The notes beneath the pieces are model-generated. The model searched no databases. It was given only the letters and a program-made list of their open reading frames with translations, and was not told the DNA's origin. A DNA stretch of 7,915 nucleotides from Candidatus Mcinerneyibacteriota bacterium (GTDB lineage Bacteria > AUK180 > JAQVHJ01). The position numbers were made by a program, and so were the translations under genes. The number at the start of each line of letters is the position of its first letter. The stretch's first letter is position 1. The stretch lies in NCBI GenBank assembly GCA_030630935.1, contig DAOVMD010000128.1:1-7915 (forward strand), written 5' to 3'. Positions 251-7,915 of the stretch are shown here, in pieces.

Positions 251-613
251 TTAATGATCACAAATATTCTCTCCGATCTCGAGATTCTCTCCAACATATC
301 TCTTCACAATCTCTTCAGGAGAATCTCCATCTACAACACCTGTAATGACTTCAATACCAAATTCTGTAAAGAGATTTTTTGCACGGCTGCCCATTCCACC
401 GGCAATGATAATATCTGTATTCTGTTTACTTAACCATTCAGGAATTACTCCGGGCGCATGCGACGGCGGGGCTAAAGGTTCTGTTGCTTTTATTTCTGTT
501 CCTTTAACTTCAAACATTGCAAACTTCTCACAATGACCAAAATGTTCACATAACTTCCCTGCAACTGTAGGGAGGGCAATTATCGTAACATTAGAATCTT
601 TTTTCTCTGTCAT
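251..613 (-). other. Possible internal translation start giving a free NifX/ORP-like domain
   Basis: Met303 of the Mrp-ORP fusion lies in the linker just before the C-terminal domain. Its ATG (611-613) is preceded by GAGG with an 8-nt spacer, which is normal Shine-Dalgarno geometry. Initiation here would yield a 120-residue free ORP-like protein, the form in which this domain is encoded separately in many anaerobes. The linker is Lys/Glu-rich, so a purine-rich stretch is expected by composition and the site may be accidental. Suggestive only. Confidence 0.3.
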
Positions 614-1519
614 AGTTTTTTCCTCTTTTTTATTTTTCTTAACTTCAGATTTTTTTGATTCGGTTTTGGTTGACTTTAATAGTCCTTCGACCTCATCTAA
701 AATTTTATTATATTCAATCAGGGTCTTGGAATCTTCTTTCTCATCAAATATCGAAATACCGGAATCACCCATCTCAACAATCTCAGGGTCAATCGGGATT
801 GCACCAAGAAAATTCAATGAAAATTCTTCTGCAACTTTCTTCCCGCCATGTTTCTTAAAGAGGTCGATCTCTTCGCCGCAATGAGGACATGTGAACCCGC
901 TCATGTTCTCTAAAATTCCAAGAATCGGCATTTTAACCTGTTTACAGAAATTAATAGATTTCTTAACATCAGCAAGTGAAACATACTGTGGAGTTGTAAC
1001 GATAAGTGCCTGGCATCCAGGTACTGTTTGAGCCACCGTAAGCGGTTCATCACCGGTTCCCGGAGGTGAATCAATAATTAAGTAATCCAACTTACCCCAG
1101 TTTACATCTGCAATAAACTGTCGAATTACACCTATCTTGATTGGGCCACGCCAGATTAATGCGGAATCGGGATCTTGTAAAAGAAATTGGATTGAGATAA
1201 CATTCAAGCTCTCCGAATATGAAATAGGGATTACCTGCTTTGATTTATCATCAATATCTACACGCTTCTTCTCAAGACCTAAAATATTTGTGATACTCGG
1301 TCCGTGAAGGTCAGTATCTAAAATCCCTACTTTATAACCACGTTTCGATAAACCAATCGCCAGGTTTGCAGCAGTTGTACTCTTGCCAACGCCACCTTTA
1401 CCGCTCATAACCATAATTTTATGTGTTATTTCATTTAGCTTATCTTCAATCTGTTTGTTTTGAAGCATCTGCTGAAATTGCTTCTTTTGTTCTGCTGATT
1501 GAGGCTTGTCTTCAGCCAT
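251..1519 (-). CDS. Mrp/NBP35-family iron-sulfur carrier ATPase fused to a C-terminal NifX/ORP-like domain (MrpORP type)
   Basis: This 422-residue protein has two domains. Residues about 33-275 are an Mrp/NBP35 P-loop ATPase: deviant Walker A SGKGGVGKST at 39-48, the IIDSPPGTGDE strand and switch at 148-158, and the family CPHC motif (C211, C214) after ENMSGF, which in Mrp proteins bridges a [4Fe-4S] cluster across a dimer. There is no NBP35-type N-terminal ferredoxin motif. Residues 283-310 are a Lys/Glu-rich linker. Residues 311-420 are a NifX/NifB-C-terminal (dinitrogenase Fe-Mo cofactor, MTH1175-type) fold with CEHFGHCEKF at 324-333 and SHAPG at 353-357, the group that includes the orange protein of Desulfovibrio. 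Such MrpORP fusions are known from sulfate reducers, where they are linked to iron-sulfur biogenesis. The start has AGGAGG five bases upstream, and the gene begins 11 bp after the DUF59 stop. It may also make a shorter product from an internal ATG at 613. Family is very likely; substrate unknown. Confidence 0.95.
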   Translation of the reverse strand: MAEDKPQSAEQKKQFQQMLQNKQIEDKLNEITHKIMVMSGKGGVGKSTTAANLAIGLSKRGYKVGILDTDLHGPSITNILGLEKKRVDIDDKSKQVIPISYSESLNVISIQFLLQDPDSALIWRGPIKIGVIRQFIADVNWGKLDYLIIDSPPGTGDEPLTVAQTVPGCQALIVTTPQYVSLADVKKSINFCKQVKMPILGILENMSGFTCPHCGEEIDLFKKHGGKKVAEEFSLNFLGAIPIDPEIVEMGDSGISIFDEKEDSKTLIEYNKILDEVEGLLKSTKTESKKSEVKKNKKEEKTMTEKKDSNVTIIALPTVAGKLCEHFGHCEKFAMFEVKGTEIKATEPLAPPSHAPGVIPEWLSKQNTDIIIAGGMGSRAKNLFTEFGIEVITGVVDGDSPEEIVKRYVGENLEIGENICDH

Positions 1520-1530
1520 TTAGTCCTCCT

Positions 1531-1812
1531 CTATTCTTTTAATAGTTTATTTAAATCATCTTGTTTTATAAAATTCTCAACTGTGATATCCACTTTCTTA
1601 ACTCCGTCCAAAAGCATTAACTTTTCCTTAATCTTAAATGTAAGTGAATATGCTAAGGGACAAAGAAATGATGATGGTCTGAAAACAAGTGAAACAACCT
1701 GACCTGATTCATTATACTCAATATCCTTCACTAATTTTAACGCAACAACATCTGTGTAGAGTTCAGGGTCAATTATCTTTTTTAATTCTTCTATTATCTT
1801 TTCTTTATCCAT
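1531..1812 (-). CDS. MIP18/DUF59-family protein (SufT-like, iron-sulfur assembly)
   Basis: This 93-residue protein is about the normal size for a single MIP18 (DUF59) domain. It has the family DPE motif at residues 15-17 (IIDPELYTDVVALKLV) and the PSSFLCPLA segment with the conserved cysteine, C51. Proteins of this family (SufT, the PaaD N-terminal domain, eukaryotic CIA2) help mature iron-sulfur proteins or insert metal centres, often next to Mrp/NBP35 ATPases, as here. In some bacteria the domain is fused to the N-terminus of Mrp; here the two are adjacent separate genes. The ATG overlaps the stop of the upstream MinD gene by 8 nt (ATGGATAA), so translation is probably coupled. It acts in the cytoplasm, most likely as partner or cluster donor for the Mrp-ORP protein, which is inferred from position and family. 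Confidence 0.88.
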   Translation of the reverse strand: MDKEKIIEELKKIIDPELYTDVVALKLVKDIEYNESGQVVSLVFRPSSFLCPLAYSLTFKIKEKLMLLDGVKKVDITVENFIKQDDLNKLLKE

Positions 1813-2674
1813 TTAATCCTTCCATTAAGTTATTATAAATTTGGATAATAATTTCCTTCAATTCTTCCGACCTGAATTCTGTTAGAACCTTACCTTCCGA
1901 GACTGCTTCATTTACAATCGGGTCAAAAGGTATCTTACCTAATAATGTAATAGAATTTTCTAAACAATATTTATCTATATCATTGGTCTTATCTAAGTTT
2001 AAATCAAATTTATTGATAATATAAAATATATTTATTCCGAAATGCTGAACCAGTTTCACGGTCCTTTCAAAATCGGAGATGCCGGAGACAGTAGGTTCAG
2101 TTACAATAATAACATGATCAACCCCGGTTATTGAAGAAATCACAGGACAACCGGTCCCGGGAGGTCCGTCTATAAGAACGAAATCCCTACCCTTCTCTTC
2201 AGAAATTAAAGTTGCCTGATGCCGCGTCATAGTGATTAACTTACCCGAGTTCTCCTGACCCGGAAATAGTTTAGCATGTATCATATCACCAAAGATTGAA
2301 TTGGAAATATACCACTCCCCCGCAACATTAAGCTGCATCACAATCGCATCCGCAGGACAGATCCTTGGACACAATGCACAGCCATCACATAAAACTTCAT
2401 CTACAAAATATTTCTCTCCTTTAAAGATTGCATCAAATCTGCAGATATCCTGGCACTTTCCACAATTTATACATTTCTCAGGGTCAATGATTGCATTCTT
2501 CCCACCAAGAAATTCTGTGGTGGTCTTGATTTCAGGTTTTAATAACAAATGTAAGTCAGGAGCATCAACATCACAATCAACAAAGACTGAGTTTTTAAAA
2601 AGGGATGCAAGTGCACCTGCAATGGTTGTCTTACCTGTGCCGCCTTTACCGCTAATTATCGCTACTTGTTTCAT
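1805..2674 (-). CDS. MinD/ParA-family ATPase with inserted 2[4Fe-4S] ferredoxin domain (copy 2)
   Basis: The 289-residue protein has the layout of the MinD-ferredoxin ATPases of anaerobes. A deviant Walker A (GKGGTGKTT, 9-17) and the DCDVDAPD strand (33-40) come first. A ferredoxin insert follows with two CX2CX2CX3C clusters: C68, C71, C74, C78 and C96, C99, C102, C106, the second ending in CP. The ATPase resumes with the LIDGPPGTGCPV switch (167-178) and the base-recognition region around NKFDLN (221-226). Related proteins flank the orange-protein genes of Desulfovibrio and take part in that complex; a role in cluster or cofactor transfer is inferred. The ATG overlaps the upstream gene's TGA by 4 nt (ATGA), so the two MinD proteins are likely made in step and may form a heterodimer. 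It overlaps the DUF59 start by 8 nt at its 3' end. Confidence 0.93.
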   Translation of the reverse strand: MKQVAIISGKGGTGKTTIAGALASLFKNSVFVDCDVDAPDLHLLLKPEIKTTTEFLGGKNAIIDPEKCINCGKCQDICRFDAIFKGEKYFVDEVLCDGCALCPRICPADAIVMQLNVAGEWYISNSIFGDMIHAKLFPGQENSGKLITMTRHQATLISEEKGRDFVLIDGPPGTGCPVISSITGVDHVIIVTEPTVSGISDFERTVKLVQHFGINIFYIINKFDLNLDKTNDIDKYCLENSITLLGKIPFDPIVNEAVSEGKVLTEFRSEELKEIIIQIYNNLMEGLNG

Positions 2675-3528
2675 AATTGTTCAATTCTATTTAAAATGTT
2701 ATCAAGTATATCTTTATATATTTTCTTATATGGTTCTTCTTTTAAGATAATATCACCTTTTGAATATAACTCGGCTATACGCTTCTCAAATGGAATGCGA
2801 CCGATAATTGCTATATCCTCTGATTTACAATATGCGTCTATGATTTTATCGTTTGCACCGCTCTTGTTTATTACAACTGAAAAGTCCTTCTTTAATACCC
2901 GTAATAAATCAACTGCAAGCTGTAAGTCATAAAGTCCGAAAGGAGTCGGTTCCGTTACAAGAAGACAAAAATCTGAACCTAAAACACTATGAACAACTGG
3001 ACAGGATGTGCCGGGTGAAGAATCAATGAGATTGAACATGTCCTTAACAATATGCTGCTTTACTTTTTTAATTACCGGAACTCCTAACATCTCTCCAACT
3101 TTTAAAAAACCGGAGTAAATTGTAAGAGTATCACGACTACCCTTTCTGATCTTACCTATGTTCTTGTCAATTTCAAAGATCGCATTTTCAGGACACATTT
3201 CAAAACATGCCCCGCAACTATGACATAACTCATCAAAGATCATATGCTTCTTCTTAGACTTCATAATTACAATTGCATTAAATTCACAGACTTCCTGGCA
3301 AATTCCGCAGTATGTACATTTATCCGAATCAATTCTGGGAATCTTAATGTCAACTTGTTCCGTACTCTCAGGCTTGGCTTGAATAAATAAATCCACATTG
3401 GGTGCCTCAACATCACAGTCAAGTAAGTTAACTTTTCCAAATCGATCCTTCGCTGCATATGCAAGATTCACCAATACAGTGGTCTTTCCAGTACCACCCT
3501 TACCGCTTAATATCGTCATCACACTCAT
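2671..3528 (-). CDS. MinD/ParA-family ATPase with inserted 2[4Fe-4S] ferredoxin domain (copy 1)
   Basis: A 285-residue paralogue of the next gene downstream with the same architecture. It has deviant Walker A SGKGGTGKTT (8-17), DCDVEAPN (37-44), then cysteines C71, C74, C77, C81 and C102, C105, C108, C112 for two [4Fe-4S] clusters. The ATPase resumes at NLIDSSPGTSCPV (166-178), with DSS where copy 2 has DGP, and NKSGAND at 221-227. Predicted soluble, ATP-hydrolysing and redox-active or cluster-carrying. It is the first gene of the tightly packed half of the locus and follows a 134-bp gap holding its own promoter and a leader hairpin. AAAGGAG lies about 13 nt before the ATG at 3528, rather long; the in-frame ATG at residue 4 is an alternative start, but the choice does not affect the P-loop. 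Confidence 0.93.
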   Translation of the reverse strand: MSVMTILSGKGGTGKTTVLVNLAYAAKDRFGKVNLLDCDVEAPNVDLFIQAKPESTEQVDIKIPRIDSDKCTYCGICQEVCEFNAIVIMKSKKKHMIFDELCHSCGACFEMCPENAIFEIDKNIGKIRKGSRDTLTIYSGFLKVGEMLGVPVIKKVKQHIVKDMFNLIDSSPGTSCPVVHSVLGSDFCLLVTEPTPFGLYDLQLAVDLLRVLKKDFSVVINKSGANDKIIDAYCKSEDIAIIGRIPFEKRIAELYSKGDIILKEEPYKKIYKDILDNILNRIEQL

Positions 3529-3624: not shown

Positions 3625-3663
3625 AACTTGAATTATAACACTATTAAAGCGAAAATTCAAGTT
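3625..3663. promoter_or_regulatory. 10-bp inverted repeat framing the internal promoter (candidate operator)
   Basis: AACTTGAATT at 3625-3634 and its exact complement AATTCAAGTT at 3654-3663 are separated by 19 bp. The arms cover the start of the -10 and the -35 of the promoter. Their centres are 29 bp apart, close to three helical turns, so they lie on the same face of the DNA. That is the geometry of a two-site operator. On the plus strand the second arm is followed by T-rich sequence, but that is the Lys-rich 3' end of the DUF5320 gene and no plus-strand gene precedes it. Confidence 0.45.
3632..3660 (-). promoter_or_regulatory. Sigma70-type promoter for the MinD/DUF59/Mrp-ORP genes
   Basis: On the minus strand, a TTGAAT -35 (3655-3660) and a perfect TATAAT -10 (3632-3637) are separated by exactly 17 bp. 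Transcription would start near 3625, giving a leader of about 97 nt before the ATG at 3528. This would let the ATPase genes be transcribed independently of the DUF134 genes upstream. No sigma54 -24/-12 signature was seen, although the related Desulfovibrio orange-protein operons are sigma54-dependent. Confidence 0.6.
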
Positions 3664-4010
3664 TATTTTTTTTCTTTTTTCAACTCATCGAGTCTCTTCT
3701 TTAAATCGTCGATATTCTGTGCAAGCATATCGATCTGTGATTCGAGAAATTTCTTCTCATCTTCCGGGGTAGGCTGCGGGGGTTGGTAATTGTAATTATA
3801 TCCCGGGTCTACATAGTTTGGGGGTACATTCCAATAATTACCCTGGCGAAAACCACGGCCAAAACCTCTACCCATTCCACGACCACGACCATAGCCATAG
3901 CCATAACCTTGGTTATTGTATCCGGGAACCGGATATCCTGCGCAAAATCCTAAACCTCTACCTGTCATCGGACCCATTCCGTTTGGACCTGTTCTGTCTC
4001 CTCTTGGCAT
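3663..4010 (-). CDS. DUF5320 family protein, long form with C-terminal coiled coil
   Basis: A 115-residue protein. The N-terminus has the family signature: MPRGDRTGP, then GMGPMTGRGLGFCAGYP at residues 11-27, with one cysteine (C23). Residues 31-56 are a Gly/Tyr/Arg-rich stretch (GYGYGYGRGRGMGRGFGRG), 57-80 a Pro/Asn/Tyr-rich spacer, and 82-115 a charged helix likely to form a coiled coil. DUF5320 proteins commonly sit beside NifX-like and DUF134 genes in anaerobes; their function is unknown. I place the start at the ATG (4008-4010), which has AGGAGG 8 nt upstream. An in-frame GTG three codons earlier overlaps that Shine-Dalgarno site and is not credible. The gene is a tandem paralogue of the next one upstream. 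Confidence 0.85.
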   Translation of the reverse strand: MPRGDRTGPNGMGPMTGRGLGFCAGYPVPGYNNQGYGYGYGRGRGMGRGFGRGFRQGNYWNVPPNYVDPGYNYNYQPPQPTPEDEKKFLESQIDMLAQNIDDLKKRLDELKKEKK

Positions 4011-4043: not shown

Positions 4044-4070
4044 TTTTAATATTAATAATTTCTCTTCTCT
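4044..4070. repeat. 27-bp spacer repeat, copy A (before the long DUF5320 gene)
   Basis: This 27-bp AT- and pyrimidine-rich stretch is identical to 4318-4344. Each copy lies a short distance upstream, in the direction of transcription, of a DUF5320 gene, 274 bp apart. It shows that the DUF5320 genes were duplicated as a block including their leader, or that the leader is kept by selection. Confidence 0.8.
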
Positions 4071-4285
4071 TAACGATAACCACGACCAAAACCACCGCCG
4101 CGATTTGAACCTCTACCCATTCCACGACCAAAACCACCGCCGCGATTAAAGCCTCTACCCATTCCACGACCATAACCATAACCTTGGTTACTATAGCCTG
4201 GAGCAGGATATCCCGCGCAAAATCCTAAACCTCTTCCTGTCATCGGACCCATTCCACCTGGTCCTGTTCCGTTTCCTCTTGGCAT
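4070..4285 (-). CDS. DUF5320 family protein, short form lacking the coiled coil
   Basis: A 71-residue paralogue of the downstream gene: the N-terminal 46 residues are nearly the same (MPRGNGTGP, GMGPMTGRGLGFCAGYP, C23, then GYGYGRGMGRGF). It then diverges into a Gly/Arg-rich tail built from a 14-residue repeat (GRGMGRGFNRGGGF, GRGMGRGSNRGGGF) and stops at GRGYR, without the Pro-rich spacer and coiled coil of the long form. The ATG at 4283-4285 has GGAGG 8 nt upstream; the GTG three codons earlier overlaps the ribosome site. The tail resembles RGG-type nucleic-acid-binding segments, but that is compositional only. Function unknown. Confidence 0.82.
   Translation of the reverse strand: MPRGNGTGPGGMGPMTGRGLGFCAGYPAPGYSNQGYGYGRGMGRGFNRGGGFGRGMGRGSNRGGGFGRGYR
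4079..4172. repeat. 42-bp minisatellite inside the short DUF5320 gene
   Basis: A 42-bp unit, whose copies start at 4110 and 4152, encodes the 14-residue Gly/Arg repeat; a partial third copy lies at about 4079-4109. Copies differ at only a few positions around the Phe/Ser-Asn codons, consistent with recent expansion by slippage or unequal recombination. Confidence 0.7.
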
Positions 4286-4317
4286 CTTTCTCACCTCCCT
4301 TTATTATTTAGTTCATG

Positions 4318-4344
4318 TTTTAATATTAATAATTTCTCTTCTCT
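4318..4344. repeat. 27-bp spacer repeat, copy B (before the short DUF5320 gene)
   Basis: Identical to 4044-4070. It lies between the ferredoxin stop (4373) and the short DUF5320 start (4285). The bases between it and the ferredoxin stop are not shared with the other spacer. Confidence 0.8.
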
Positions 4345-4372
4345 CTTACCATTCTTATCTCCAAAATTATTT

Positions 4373-4843
4373 TTAACCTCTTTTTCCACGGCCCTTTCCT
4401 TGATTACCGGATTTTTTGTTAATTCCCGGACCTCGACCTCGACCTTTTCCTTTACCAATAAATTGACCTTTGCCTTGACCTTTGCCGAAACCCTGACCCT
4501 GACCCTTGCCAATAAATTGGCCTTGGCCCATACCTTTCCCTAAACCTTGACCAGTACCCTGACCCTGACCAATACCTTGGCTTTGACCTTGACCTTTCCC
4601 CAATCCTTGACCAGTTCCTTGGCTTTGTCCAATAAATTGGCTTTCATTAGAAGGATTCACTGTAATTGAATCAAAATCCAATGCACCTAACGGACATGAA
4701 GCAATACAATCTCCACAGCCGCTGCATAAATCTTCATTAATATGCGCAATGCTGTCAATCGTAATTGCTGCAAATCGACAGGAATCAATGCATACTCCAC
4801 AGCCGTTACAAGTTTCTTCATTAACCTTTACAATTTCTTTCAT
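4373..4843 (-). CDS. 2[4Fe-4S] ferredoxin with long Gly/Gln/Lys-rich C-terminal tail
   Basis: A 156-residue protein. Residues 1-62 are a bacterial-type ferredoxin with two CX2CX2CX3C clusters: C12, C15, C18, C22 and C40, C43, C46, C50. The second ends in the usual Cys-Pro; the first ends in Cys-Arg, which is unusual. Residues about 67-156 are low-complexity repeats of Gly-Gln, Gly-Lys and finally Gly-Arg, with QFIG recurring three times. A typical ferredoxin of this kind is only about 55-65 residues, so more than half the protein is tail. The start at 4843 is set by AAAGGAGAT just upstream; an in-frame extension to 4951 would lie inside DUF134 and lacks such a site. The gene begins 13 bp after the DUF134 stop, so they are cotranscribed. 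It could supply electrons or clusters to the ATPases downstream (inference). The tail's role is unknown. Confidence 0.88.
   Translation of the reverse strand: MKEIVKVNEETCNGCGVCIDSCRFAAITIDSIAHINEDLCSGCGDCIASCPLGALDFDSITVNPSNESQFIGQSQGTGQGLGKGQGQSQGIGQGQGTGQGLGKGMGQGQFIGKGQGQGFGKGQGKGQFIGKGKGRGRGPGINKKSGNQGKGRGKRG
4440..4650. repeat. Short tandem repeats coding for the ferredoxin tail
   Basis: A run of degenerate 6- to 12-bp repeats with CCTTGACC, CCCTGACC and CCAATAAATTG(G/A)C cores. The last occurs three times and encodes the QFIG(Q/K) motif. Such sequence is prone to length change by slippage, so tail length probably varies between strains. Confidence 0.65.
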
Positions 4844-4856
4844 TTTTAATCTCCTT

Positions 4857-5360
4857 TTATCTGTTTCCGCGTGCCGGACCACGACCCCGACCCTGACCCC
4901 GGTTTTGAGACCGACCACGACCGCGACCTTGGCAACATTGACCATGACCAAATTGCTCTGCGAGATTTTGAAGTTTTCCGCTGCCGCATTTCGGACATCG
5001 AATTAATACAGCGGCATTAATATCCTGCTCTATAATAAGTCCGCAATTCAAACAACGAATTCGATTCCCCATAAAATGGACAACACCTCCTTCAATCTGA
5101 AGAGACTTACCATTAATAAGAAAATCTGTAATTTTAAACCTTGCCTTCTCAACCAACCTTGTAAAGGTCGGTCGTGATATCCCCATTAATTCAGATGCAT
5201 CCGCCTGATCTAAACCCTTATAATCCGCGAGACGTAGTGCCTCGTATTCATCTAATGATAATATTACCGGCTCCAATTTTACGATAGGTACTTGAACCGG
5301 CTTGAAACTATTAAACCGCGGGGGTGACCCCACATTCCGATTCTTTTTAGGTCTCGTCAT
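4857..5360 (-). CDS. DUF134 family helix-turn-helix protein with zinc-ribbon and RG-rich tail; likely local regulator
   Basis: A 167-residue protein. Residues 1-24 are the basic DUF134 start (MTRPKKNRNV, then PPRFNSFKPVQVP). Residues about 34-80 hold the conserved LSLDEYEALRLADYKGLDQ and a helix-turn-helix (DASELMGISRPTFTRLVEKA) typical of this family of predicted DNA-binding proteins. Two CX2C pairs follow, C103/C106 and C122/C125, a plausible zinc ribbon. The last 30 residues are Gly/Arg-rich (QGRGRGRSQNRGQGRGRG) with a Cys-Cys pair at 142-143. It is the first gene after the strong promoter at 5406-5434, and a perfect palindrome overlies its transcription start, so autoregulation is a reasonable inference. 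GGAGA lies 8-9 nt before the ATG. The usual DUF134 protein is of similar or shorter length; the RG tail looks like a lineage addition. Confidence 0.9.
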   Translation of the reverse strand: MTRPKKNRNVGSPPRFNSFKPVQVPIVKLEPVILSLDEYEALRLADYKGLDQADASELMGISRPTFTRLVEKARFKITDFLINGKSLQIEGGVVHFMGNRIRCLNCGLIIEQDINAAVLIRCPKCGSGKLQNLAEQFGHGQCCQGRGRGRSQNRGQGRGRGPARGNR

Positions 5361-5434: not shown

Positions 5435-5455
5435 GGTCTAAATAAGAAAAGTTTA

Positions 5456-5756
5456 ATGCATGCTTCGCATGCGTTCAAGTGTTTAAAAGTTCAAATGTTT
5501 AATAAATGTTTAAATGTGCGGATGCTGCGATAGTTCAATTGTTCAAGTGTTAAAAACTGTTTAAATGTTATTGTAGAGACGTGCTATGGCACGTCTGATA
5601 GTTCAATTGTTCAAGTGTTTTATAAAGGCATACTTTGCATGCGTTTAAGTGTTAATAATGTTACGATAGTTCAATAGTTAAATTGTTAAAAAAATGTTTA
5701 AGTGTGCGGTTGATATGATAGTTAAATTATTGAAGCACAGCGATTGCTACGCAATT
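5456..5756. repeat. Non-coding mosaic of degenerate direct repeats and small hairpins
   Basis: No credible gene lies here. A 23-bp direct repeat starting GATAGTTCAA is exact at 5529-5551 and 5597-5619, and degenerate at 5665; the three are exactly 68 bp apart. A weaker copy is at 5717. A second repeat is shared by 5505-5524 and 5693-5712 (two differences). Small hairpins are embedded: GCATGC-TTC-GCATGC at 5458-5472 (flanks extend it), a degenerate copy at 5628-5642, an 8-bp perfect stem AGACGTGC/GCACGTCT with loop TATG at 5577-5596, and GATTGC-TAC-GCAATT at 5742-5756. The 5458 and 5628 hairpins are each followed by GCGTT(C/T)AAGTGTT. The layout suggests decayed copies of a family of small intergenic elements. 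Confidence 0.65.
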
Positions 5757-6029: not shown

Positions 6030-6692
6030 TTAAAGGTCCTTTATTCTTGCAATTTTTTGGCTTCCTTGTTTACTACTTATAGAATAATTGCATAAAAAAA
6101 TAAATCCCTTTTTTTCAGAATATTTTTCCTTATTTCCAGATTTTAAATATATATTTCTAGCAATCTCTTTACTGTTATTTAATTTATCGATTATATTATC
6201 AATATGATTTTCAAATCTTTTTGTATCTTTTTTTGATTCAACTAATGTAATATACATAAAAATATTGTAAGCATTTTCATTTTCTTTTTTCAATAATAAT
6301 TTCATAAAAACTTCTACTAAATTTTGCAATGTACAATTTTTAGGTCCCTTCCATTCGATAAAAAATTCATTATTGGAATTATTTCCAATATAAAAATCAA
6401 AAGAACCCTGTTGTCCATTATTAATGATGTTTTTTATTTCATCTTTATCTTCATCTAAATATTTTTTTAGAGATCCCCAAGAGAATTTTTGATTACATGT
6501 ATTATATTCAGGCTTAATATATAAATTCTTCCATATATCCCTACCATATTTTTCATAAAGTAAATTTGAAAACATATGGTGGAAGTACCTTTCATTAAAT
6601 TTATCACTTTCAAAAGGCACAGGAATATCTGCTATTAATTGAATAATTTCATTAAAAATATTCTCGATATCGTTTTTATTTATATCCTTCAT
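6030..6692 (-). CDS. Hypothetical protein with possible PD-(D/E)XK nuclease-like core
   Basis: I do not recognise a named family for this 220-residue, Lys/Asn-rich soluble protein; no signal peptide or membrane segment is visible. Its middle has a pattern seen in restriction-endonuclease-like folds: an acidic residue in an N-terminal helix (E34, in NERYFHHMFSNLLYEKYG), then SFDFYIG with D99, a turn, and a beta-strand EFFIEWKG with E113 and K115, giving D-X13-E-X-K. A helix (TLQNLVEVFMKLLLKK) and a strand (AYNIFMYITLV) follow, as expected for that fold. The N-terminal half also resembles small proteins of defence or mobile loci in style only. AGAGG lies about 7-8 nt before the ATG. It stands alone, 108 bp from the NHL gene, in more AT-rich sequence than the iron-sulfur locus, which hints at acquisition. 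The nuclease idea is inference from motif spacing. Confidence 0.75.
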   Translation of the reverse strand: MKDINKNDIENIFNEIIQLIADIPVPFESDKFNERYFHHMFSNLLYEKYGRDIWKNLYIKPEYNTCNQKFSWGSLKKYLDEDKDEIKNIINNGQQGSFDFYIGNNSNNEFFIEWKGPKNCTLQNLVEVFMKLLLKKENENAYNIFMYITLVESKKDTKRFENHIDNIIDKLNNSKEIARNIYLKSGNKEKYSEKKGFIFLCNYSISSKQGSQKIARIKDL

Positions 6693-7807: not shown

Positions 7808-7915
7808 TTATATTTTTAAAAAAGATAAATATCGATATATTGGAAAATTATGGTTACCTTTCGCCAACATTGTAAGTATACACCAAAATAGATAAAAAAT
7901 GACTTGACAAAGAGA
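7808..7915. other. Right-edge non-coding sequence with a partial rightward promoter
   Basis: No gene is supported. TTGACA at 7904-7909 on the plus strand is a consensus -35; its -10 would lie outside the window, so a rightward gene may begin just beyond. On the minus strand TATACT (7875-7880) could be a -10 for the NHL gene, but the hexamer 17 bp upstream of it is poor and the leader would exceed 200 nt. Confidence 0.3.

Follow-up and report, generated by a model that had tools for sequence, protein, structure and literature searches.

The window analyzed here, namely the whole contig C30 (7,915 bp) of a draft genome (3.16 Mb in 471 contigs, ~80% complete), raises the question of why neighboring genes for unrelated folded proteins all encode Gly-rich segments. 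The ORF map of the window contains eight co-directional genes on the minus strand, with gaps of ≤134 bp and several overlaps, in the order (5′ to 3′) DUF134, ferredoxin, short DUF5320, full-length DUF5320, two MinD-type ATPases, PF01883, and MrpORP (Table 1). Because of the paired MinD-type ATPases with ferredoxin inserts, the PF01883 protein, and MrpORP, the eight genes are assigned to one ORP (orange-protein) type operon, and they are presumably co-transcribed. ORP operons encode metal-cluster proteins and are found mainly in anaerobes; the system is widespread and conserved.

The paired MinD-type ATPases with ferredoxin inserts and MrpORP are shared with the Desulfovibrio ORP operon and complex (Orp3, Orp4, Orp5, Orp8, and MrpORP) (PMC6345978, PMC3897727). 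Unlike in Desulfovibrio, a single operon is headed here by the DUF134, tailed ferredoxin, and two DUF5320 genes. Neither a stand-alone orange protein (Orp8, NifX type) was found on this incomplete contig, which ends at position 7915, nor a sigma54-dependent activator among the window ORFs scanned. One other NifX-type gene is present in the ~80% complete genome, on contig C365, and it has no Gly-rich tail.

Table 1. Features of the ORP-type operon in the window, with the Gly-rich tails of the DUF134 protein and the ferredoxin listed below their proteins.
Feature	Position	Strand	Evidence
DUF134 (PF02001) protein, 167 aa: HTH-like N-terminal part, C-terminal zinc-ribbon-like CxxC pairs, basic RG tail	4857..5360	-	Pfam 88.4 bits, cut-off 27
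RG-rich tail of DUF134, ~last 31 aa: 10 Gly, 8 Arg	4857..4952	-	Sequence
2[4Fe-4S] ferredoxin with long tail, 156 aa, ATG start at 4843	4373..4843	-	Pfam Fer4 47.9 bits; two CxxCxxCxxxC motifs
Gly-rich GQ/GK/GR tail of ferredoxin, residues ~66-156, degenerate tandem repeats of 42-60 bp	4376..4648	-	Sequence and repeat search
Short DUF5320 protein, 71 aa: conserved MPRGNGTGP..MTGRG N-terminus and Gly-rich segment, without C-terminal helix	4070..4285	-	Pfam 45.4 bits, cut-off 27, profile 1-55 only
Full-length DUF5320 protein, 115 aa: N-terminal motif, Gly-rich segment, C-terminal helix 82-114	3663..4010	-	Pfam 112.3 bits, cut-off 27, profile 1-99
MinD-type P-loop ATPase, first of pair, 2[4Fe-4S] ferredoxin domain inserted	2671..3528	-	P-loop and Fer4 matches
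MinD-type P-loop ATPase, second of pair, 2[4Fe-4S] ferredoxin domain inserted; 4 bp overlap with first	1805..2674	-	P-loop and Fer4 matches
PF01883 iron-sulfur cluster assembly-type protein	1531..1812	-	42.9 bits, above cut-off
MrpORP-type iron-sulfur carrier: Mrp/NBP35 domain and NifX domain	251..1519	-	NCBIfam NF041136 517 bits, cut-off 450

An earlier note on this DNA had described four consecutive, unrelated Gly-rich genes within positions 4070–5360. The segments are present on all four proteins, but the unrelated families number three because two of the proteins are DUF5320 (PF17253) paralogues, and the fourth gene lies at 3663–4010, outside that span. The Gly-rich part of DUF5320 belongs to the family itself; both paralogues bear GYGYGRG/GMGRGF segments, and whereas the full-length protein has the N-terminal motif, Gly-rich middle, and C-terminal helix, the short protein lacks the helix. 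The DUF134 protein shares the HTH-type domain and zinc-ribbon-like CxxC pairs of DUF134/UPF0251 (PF02001), but its RG tail, which ends in ...CCQGRGRGRSQNRGQGRGRGPARGNR and carries a net charge of ~+7.8 over the last 24 aa, is missing in most members sampled. The third protein has the two CxxCxxCxxxC motifs and the predicted fold of 2[4Fe-4S] bacterial-type ferredoxins but adds a basic Gly-rich tail of 91 residues (40% Gly, with 17 Gln, 11 Lys, and 4 Arg). This tail is longer than the domain (~58 residues), as the earlier note had observed for a stretch of ~90 GQ/GK/GR residues, and its charge of ~+13.8, against ~−7.5 for the domain, turns an acidic protein basic. Clustered RG/RGG repeats are clear in the DUF134 and DUF5320 proteins, whereas the ferredoxin tail is mainly GQ/GK. 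The AlphaFold2 models, which were built from alignments of few sequences (6 and 15), place the ferredoxin fold at residues 1–59 with pLDDT < 50 for the remainder, and give helix 82–114 as the only structured element of the full-length DUF5320 protein. The Gly-rich segments are predicted to be disordered, and are probably so in vivo.

Coding sequence of this kind is rare in the genome. The pattern GGNMGNGGNMGNGG, which codes for G[R/S]G[R/S]G, has nine matches in the whole 3.16 Mb assembly, four of which fall within 1.05 kb (C30:3877–4928; binomial P ~1.5e-12). None of the remaining five was taken as a further tailed protein: on contigs C109 and C93 the pattern falls within genes for ordinary enzymes, in sense or antisense, that on C356 is in no ORF, and the two on C42 read as Gly-Ser codon runs. 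Chance composition is ruled out by this genome-wide count together with random control regions.

To see how widely the segments recur, a survey was made of 80 loci that span many phyla of bacteria and archaea; the loci were fetched via alignment of the first MinD-type ATPase alone and therefore were not picked for Gly-richness. A segment was defined as a 24-residue window with ≥9 Gly, ≥4 GXG, ≥6 of the residues RKQMFYWN, and ≤4 Pro. Such segments were found in 65 of 1,270 ORFs, distributed over 46 of the 80 loci, and in 0 of 399 ORFs from 20 control regions of ~20 kb taken from other genome parts in a set of genomes that differs from that of the loci (P = 1.9e-8). With DUF5320-type proteins left out, the counts were 39/1,241 and 0/399 (P = 3e-5). 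The enrichment was stable over five thresholds, which were set after examples had been seen, and the loci underlying these statistics are not phylogenetically independent. Carriers are concentrated near the ATPase genes (55 of 612 ORFs within 2 kb versus 6 of 333 beyond 3 kb; P = 5e-6), their frequency declining from ~9–11% within 1 kb to ~2% beyond 3 kb. At least one of the 65 carriers is a spurious antisense ORF (L081 7473–8435). The types of carrier in this operon type are DUF5320, NifX, zinc-ribbon, ferredoxin, DUF134, and PadR proteins. That the segments recur across many lineages of bacteria and archaea suggests a role for them in making the parts of the operon work together.

Whether the tails are kept across orthologues, as the earlier note had asked, depends on the family. 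A Gly-rich segment is retained by all 51 DUF5320 proteins that have the N-terminal motif (51/51, looser rule), and DUF5320 was not found in the other species of the genus of genome G135. Among NifX proteins in the MinD-selected loci, 18 of 77 bear a segment and about three quarters do not. Ferredoxins of <300 aa in such loci have a segment in 12 of 25 cases, some of the 25 coming from loci picked by the DUF5320 profile and a few being ATPase fragments, compared with 0 of 26 ferredoxin-type proteins of <230 aa from elsewhere (strict rule), which include one from the window's own genome; when only MinD-selected loci are counted and fragments are left out by eye, the proportion is 4/10 (P = 0.004). 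Tailed ferredoxins are patchy even between relatives: no close orthologue of the window's tailed ferredoxin was found in the relatives searched, and the tailed ferredoxin of genome G084 had no tailed orthologue in its family. The tails of DUF134 are likewise patchy between relatives, variable, and confined to a minority of the sampled members. The last 35 residues of DUF134 contain on average 6.6 Gly near DUF5320-type genes versus 4.1 (P = 0.0035), a comparison without phylogenetic correction and with unequal locus lengths, and one DUF134 protein (L086) has a Gly/Arg tail of 35 residues.

Several single loci are also worth recording. One of the 26 outside ferredoxin-type proteins (L236 1381–1686), near an Mrp/NBP35 gene and outside the MinD-pair loci, has a shorter RG tail, GRGMGRGRGRGRWRGRGRWQ. 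Small ferredoxins in four loci (L085, L090, L111, and L175) have no Gly-rich tail and end in a short helix-like stretch resembling that of DUF5320. In the ORP-type locus L140, a PadR-type regulator (2192–2638) has the N-terminal head GGGGGRGRGGGGGRHRGRG, and the same locus holds a Gly-rich ferredoxin, a zinc-ribbon protein, and a DUF5320 protein.

The composition of the segments is similar across carriers. All main segment classes have 36–42% Gly, 11–26% Arg+Lys, and 0–3% Asp+Glu, such that the classes are alike in Gly content, in positive charge, in having almost no acidic residues, and in predicted disorder. The X of GXG varies by class, being Arg or aromatic in DUF5320, Met in NifX, and Gln or Lys in the window's ferredoxin. 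All four Gly-rich proteins of the window are basic, whereas its ATPases, PF01883 protein, and MrpORP are neutral to acidic (~−1 to −12).

The reading that we favor, with a probability of roughly 0.45, is that cationic, disordered Gly-rich segments would serve the co-assembly of ORP proteins. The segment may be a shared, low-specificity interaction element, disordered, Gly-rich, cationic, and nearly free of acidic residues, that forms the middle of DUF5320, ahead of the helix, or a tail or head on NifX, zinc-ribbon, ferredoxin, DUF134, and PadR proteins. Through contacts that would be many and weak (Arg–aromatic and Arg/Lys–acidic), the segments could hold small metalloproteins and regulators close together and close to the acidic ATPases (MinD type and MrpORP), and the DUF5320-type helix, where present, could provide oligomerization. 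Electrostatic docking and a role in cluster transfer would be part of such co-assembly. Low-specificity co-assembly is favored because Gly content, charge, and disorder are constant while X varies, and because basic tailed proteins are encoded beside neutral to acidic ATPases, PF01883 protein, and MrpORP. The operon arrangement, the enrichment of segments near the ATPase genes, their frequency on ferredoxins of such loci, the fusions of the DUF5320 module, the composition kept within one genus, and the third-position differences between ferredoxin repeat copies also speak for it. As X differs by class, the segments may not share one partner. A point against co-assembly is the patchiness of tailed ferredoxins and DUF134 proteins and the lack of a segment in most NifX proteins. 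In D. vulgaris, Orp3/4/5/8/9 form a complex to whose members MrpORP transfers Fe-S clusters, and MrpORP is located at a cell pole (PMC6345978).

A bolder version, which we consider unlikely, is that a portable cationic Gly-rich segment acts as an address tag gathering ORP metalloproteins and regulators into a condensate-like assembly for metal-cluster chemistry in anaerobic bacteria and archaea. If true, a shared disordered assembly element across unrelated folds would be a testable handle on the cellular organization of the ORP system, and would be a prokaryotic example of one low-complexity tag used across a pathway.

The main rival to co-assembly is RG-type nucleic-acid binding, in which RGG-box-like segments would bind RNA, G-quadruplexes, or nucleoid DNA and thereby tether the ORP proteins, DUF134, and PadR; we regard it as somewhat unlikely. 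The segments share with the RGG/RG low-complexity regions of RNA-binding and condensate-forming proteins a Gly/Arg-rich, acid-poor, and predicted disordered character, and Arg is the commonest X of GXG in most classes. Two families of DNA-binding type, DUF134 and PadR, bear the segment. One DUF134 and one DUF5320 protein are among the four M. mazei proteins that best match an RG-rich quadruplex-binding motif (PMC7565180), and Arg-rich low-complexity regions of prokaryotes are linked to RNA binding (PMC6821194). The literature searched contained no statement of the Gly-rich segment pattern, and PMC7565180 records the RG motif in DUF134 and DUF5320 without linking the two. However, the segments described here occur on metalloproteins of one operon type, and most carriers are metalloproteins or DUF5320 proteins. 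The window's ferredoxin tail, with only 4 Arg in ~90 residues, is of the GQ/GK kind and the NifX segments are Met-rich, both of which fit RG-type binding poorly, and a search of the window found no known RNA family or element.

Permissive linkers are a distinctly less probable explanation, according to which Gly-rich repeats would grow and shrink by slippage in flexible protein ends and be tolerated without being used. The ferredoxin gene and the short DUF5320 gene do contain tandem repeats of 42–60 bp, one of them at 92% identity and that in the short DUF5320 gene comprising 2.4 copies of 42 bp; segment sequence and length are variable, and the patchy DUF134 and ferredoxin tails also fit this explanation. 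On the other hand, neutral slippage ought not to favor one operon type across many phyla, and acidic residues are nearly absent. Nine DUF5320 homologues from eight species of genus g102 allow selection to be examined. Their pN/pS is 0.48 in the Gly-rich segment, 0.08 in the N-terminal motif, and 0.29 in the helix, and despite indels the segment remains within a length of 40–47, with 31–42% Gly, 12–15% Arg, and 20–31% aromatics. Composition is thus kept in this genus while sequence and length change, and the nearly constant fractions and the pN/pS of the segment argue against mere tolerance. Copies of the repeat in the window's ferredoxin differ mainly at third codon positions (18 of 30 differences in two pairs of copies), which is a weak sign of selection on residues because protein similarity had been used in part to pair the copies. 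Between the DUF134 proteins of genomes G002 and G003, the final stretch of the tail shows no amino-acid difference, and its DNA has a synonymous change.

It is very improbable that the segments would handle metals, binding Cu, Fe, or Mo species and passing them to orange-protein-type clusters. The NifX tails are GMGRGM-rich (Met 12%), the orange protein binds a Mo-Cu cluster (PMC6345978), and when D. alaskensis G20 is on copper or graphene-coated copper, the transcripts of its ORP-operon genes Dde_3197–3199 show some of the strongest changes (PMC10533852). However, the segments of the window's DUF134, ferredoxin, and DUF5320 proteins contain few Met, His, or Cys residues, and the class-dependent X of GXG also speaks against a metal ligand role.

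Recent spread of repetitive DNA between neighboring genes, which the earlier note had offered as a source of the shared composition, would be in keeping with the repeats and the tandem DUF5320 paralogues but appears extremely improbable, as tail codons and residues differ (GQ/GK, GR, and GY) and, in every comparison across families, between 17 and 60 of 60 synonymous-codon shuffles gave tail DNA at least as similar as the real tails. For the two DUF5320 paralogues, which alone come near to exceeding the shuffles, the figure was 5 of 60. Since the tail DNA is no more alike than the amino acids predict, recent copying between neighbors is not supported.

Part of the sharing in other genomes does reflect modular fusion and descent, because the DUF5320 module is fused to NifX and ferredoxins there. 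The Pfam DUF5320 model scores above its cut-off of 27 on a ferredoxin (L074, 37.9 bits), a NifX protein (L068, 32.5 bits), and two NifX-Fer4 fusions (L145 and L172, 40.8 and 27.5 bits). When only the C-terminal helix of DUF5320 was used as a profile, it matched the C-termini of Gly-rich NifX proteins (E = 1e-9 to 1e-14 in a small protein set) and matched no control ORF. The N-terminal motif MPRGDGTGP is also found at the start of zinc-ribbon proteins (L152 5671) and of a ferredoxin (L098 161). For the ferredoxin and DUF134 tails of the window, descent cannot be shown because neither is accompanied by a flanking DUF5320 module; judged from their sequences, recent copying seems disfavored for these tails, and they are compatible with old descent. 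Convergence for a common purpose, as envisaged by the earlier note, is partly supported: the recurrence on unrelated proteins of this operon type, the near-absence from ferredoxins elsewhere, and the conserved composition of DUF5320 speak for it, while the module fusions assign a share to descent.

The order of parts in the two NifX-Fer4 fusions (L145 5386–6261 and L172 5609–6373) is NifX, the DUF5320 Gly-rich/helix module, and a 2[4Fe-4S] ferredoxin, constituting a triple fusion.

Outside the operon, the non-coding region upstream of DUF134 (5455–5735) contains direct repeats, namely four copies of a 30-nt unit (GATAGTTCAATTGTTCAAGTGTT...) at a spacing of 52–68 nt, as well as two copies of a palindrome-like unit flanked by GCATGC. 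A 220-aa ORF at 6030–6692 gave no convincing family match. Further along the contig (6801–7649), 141-bp tandem repeats code for an NHL-repeat beta-propeller protein with a lipoprotein-like N-terminus.
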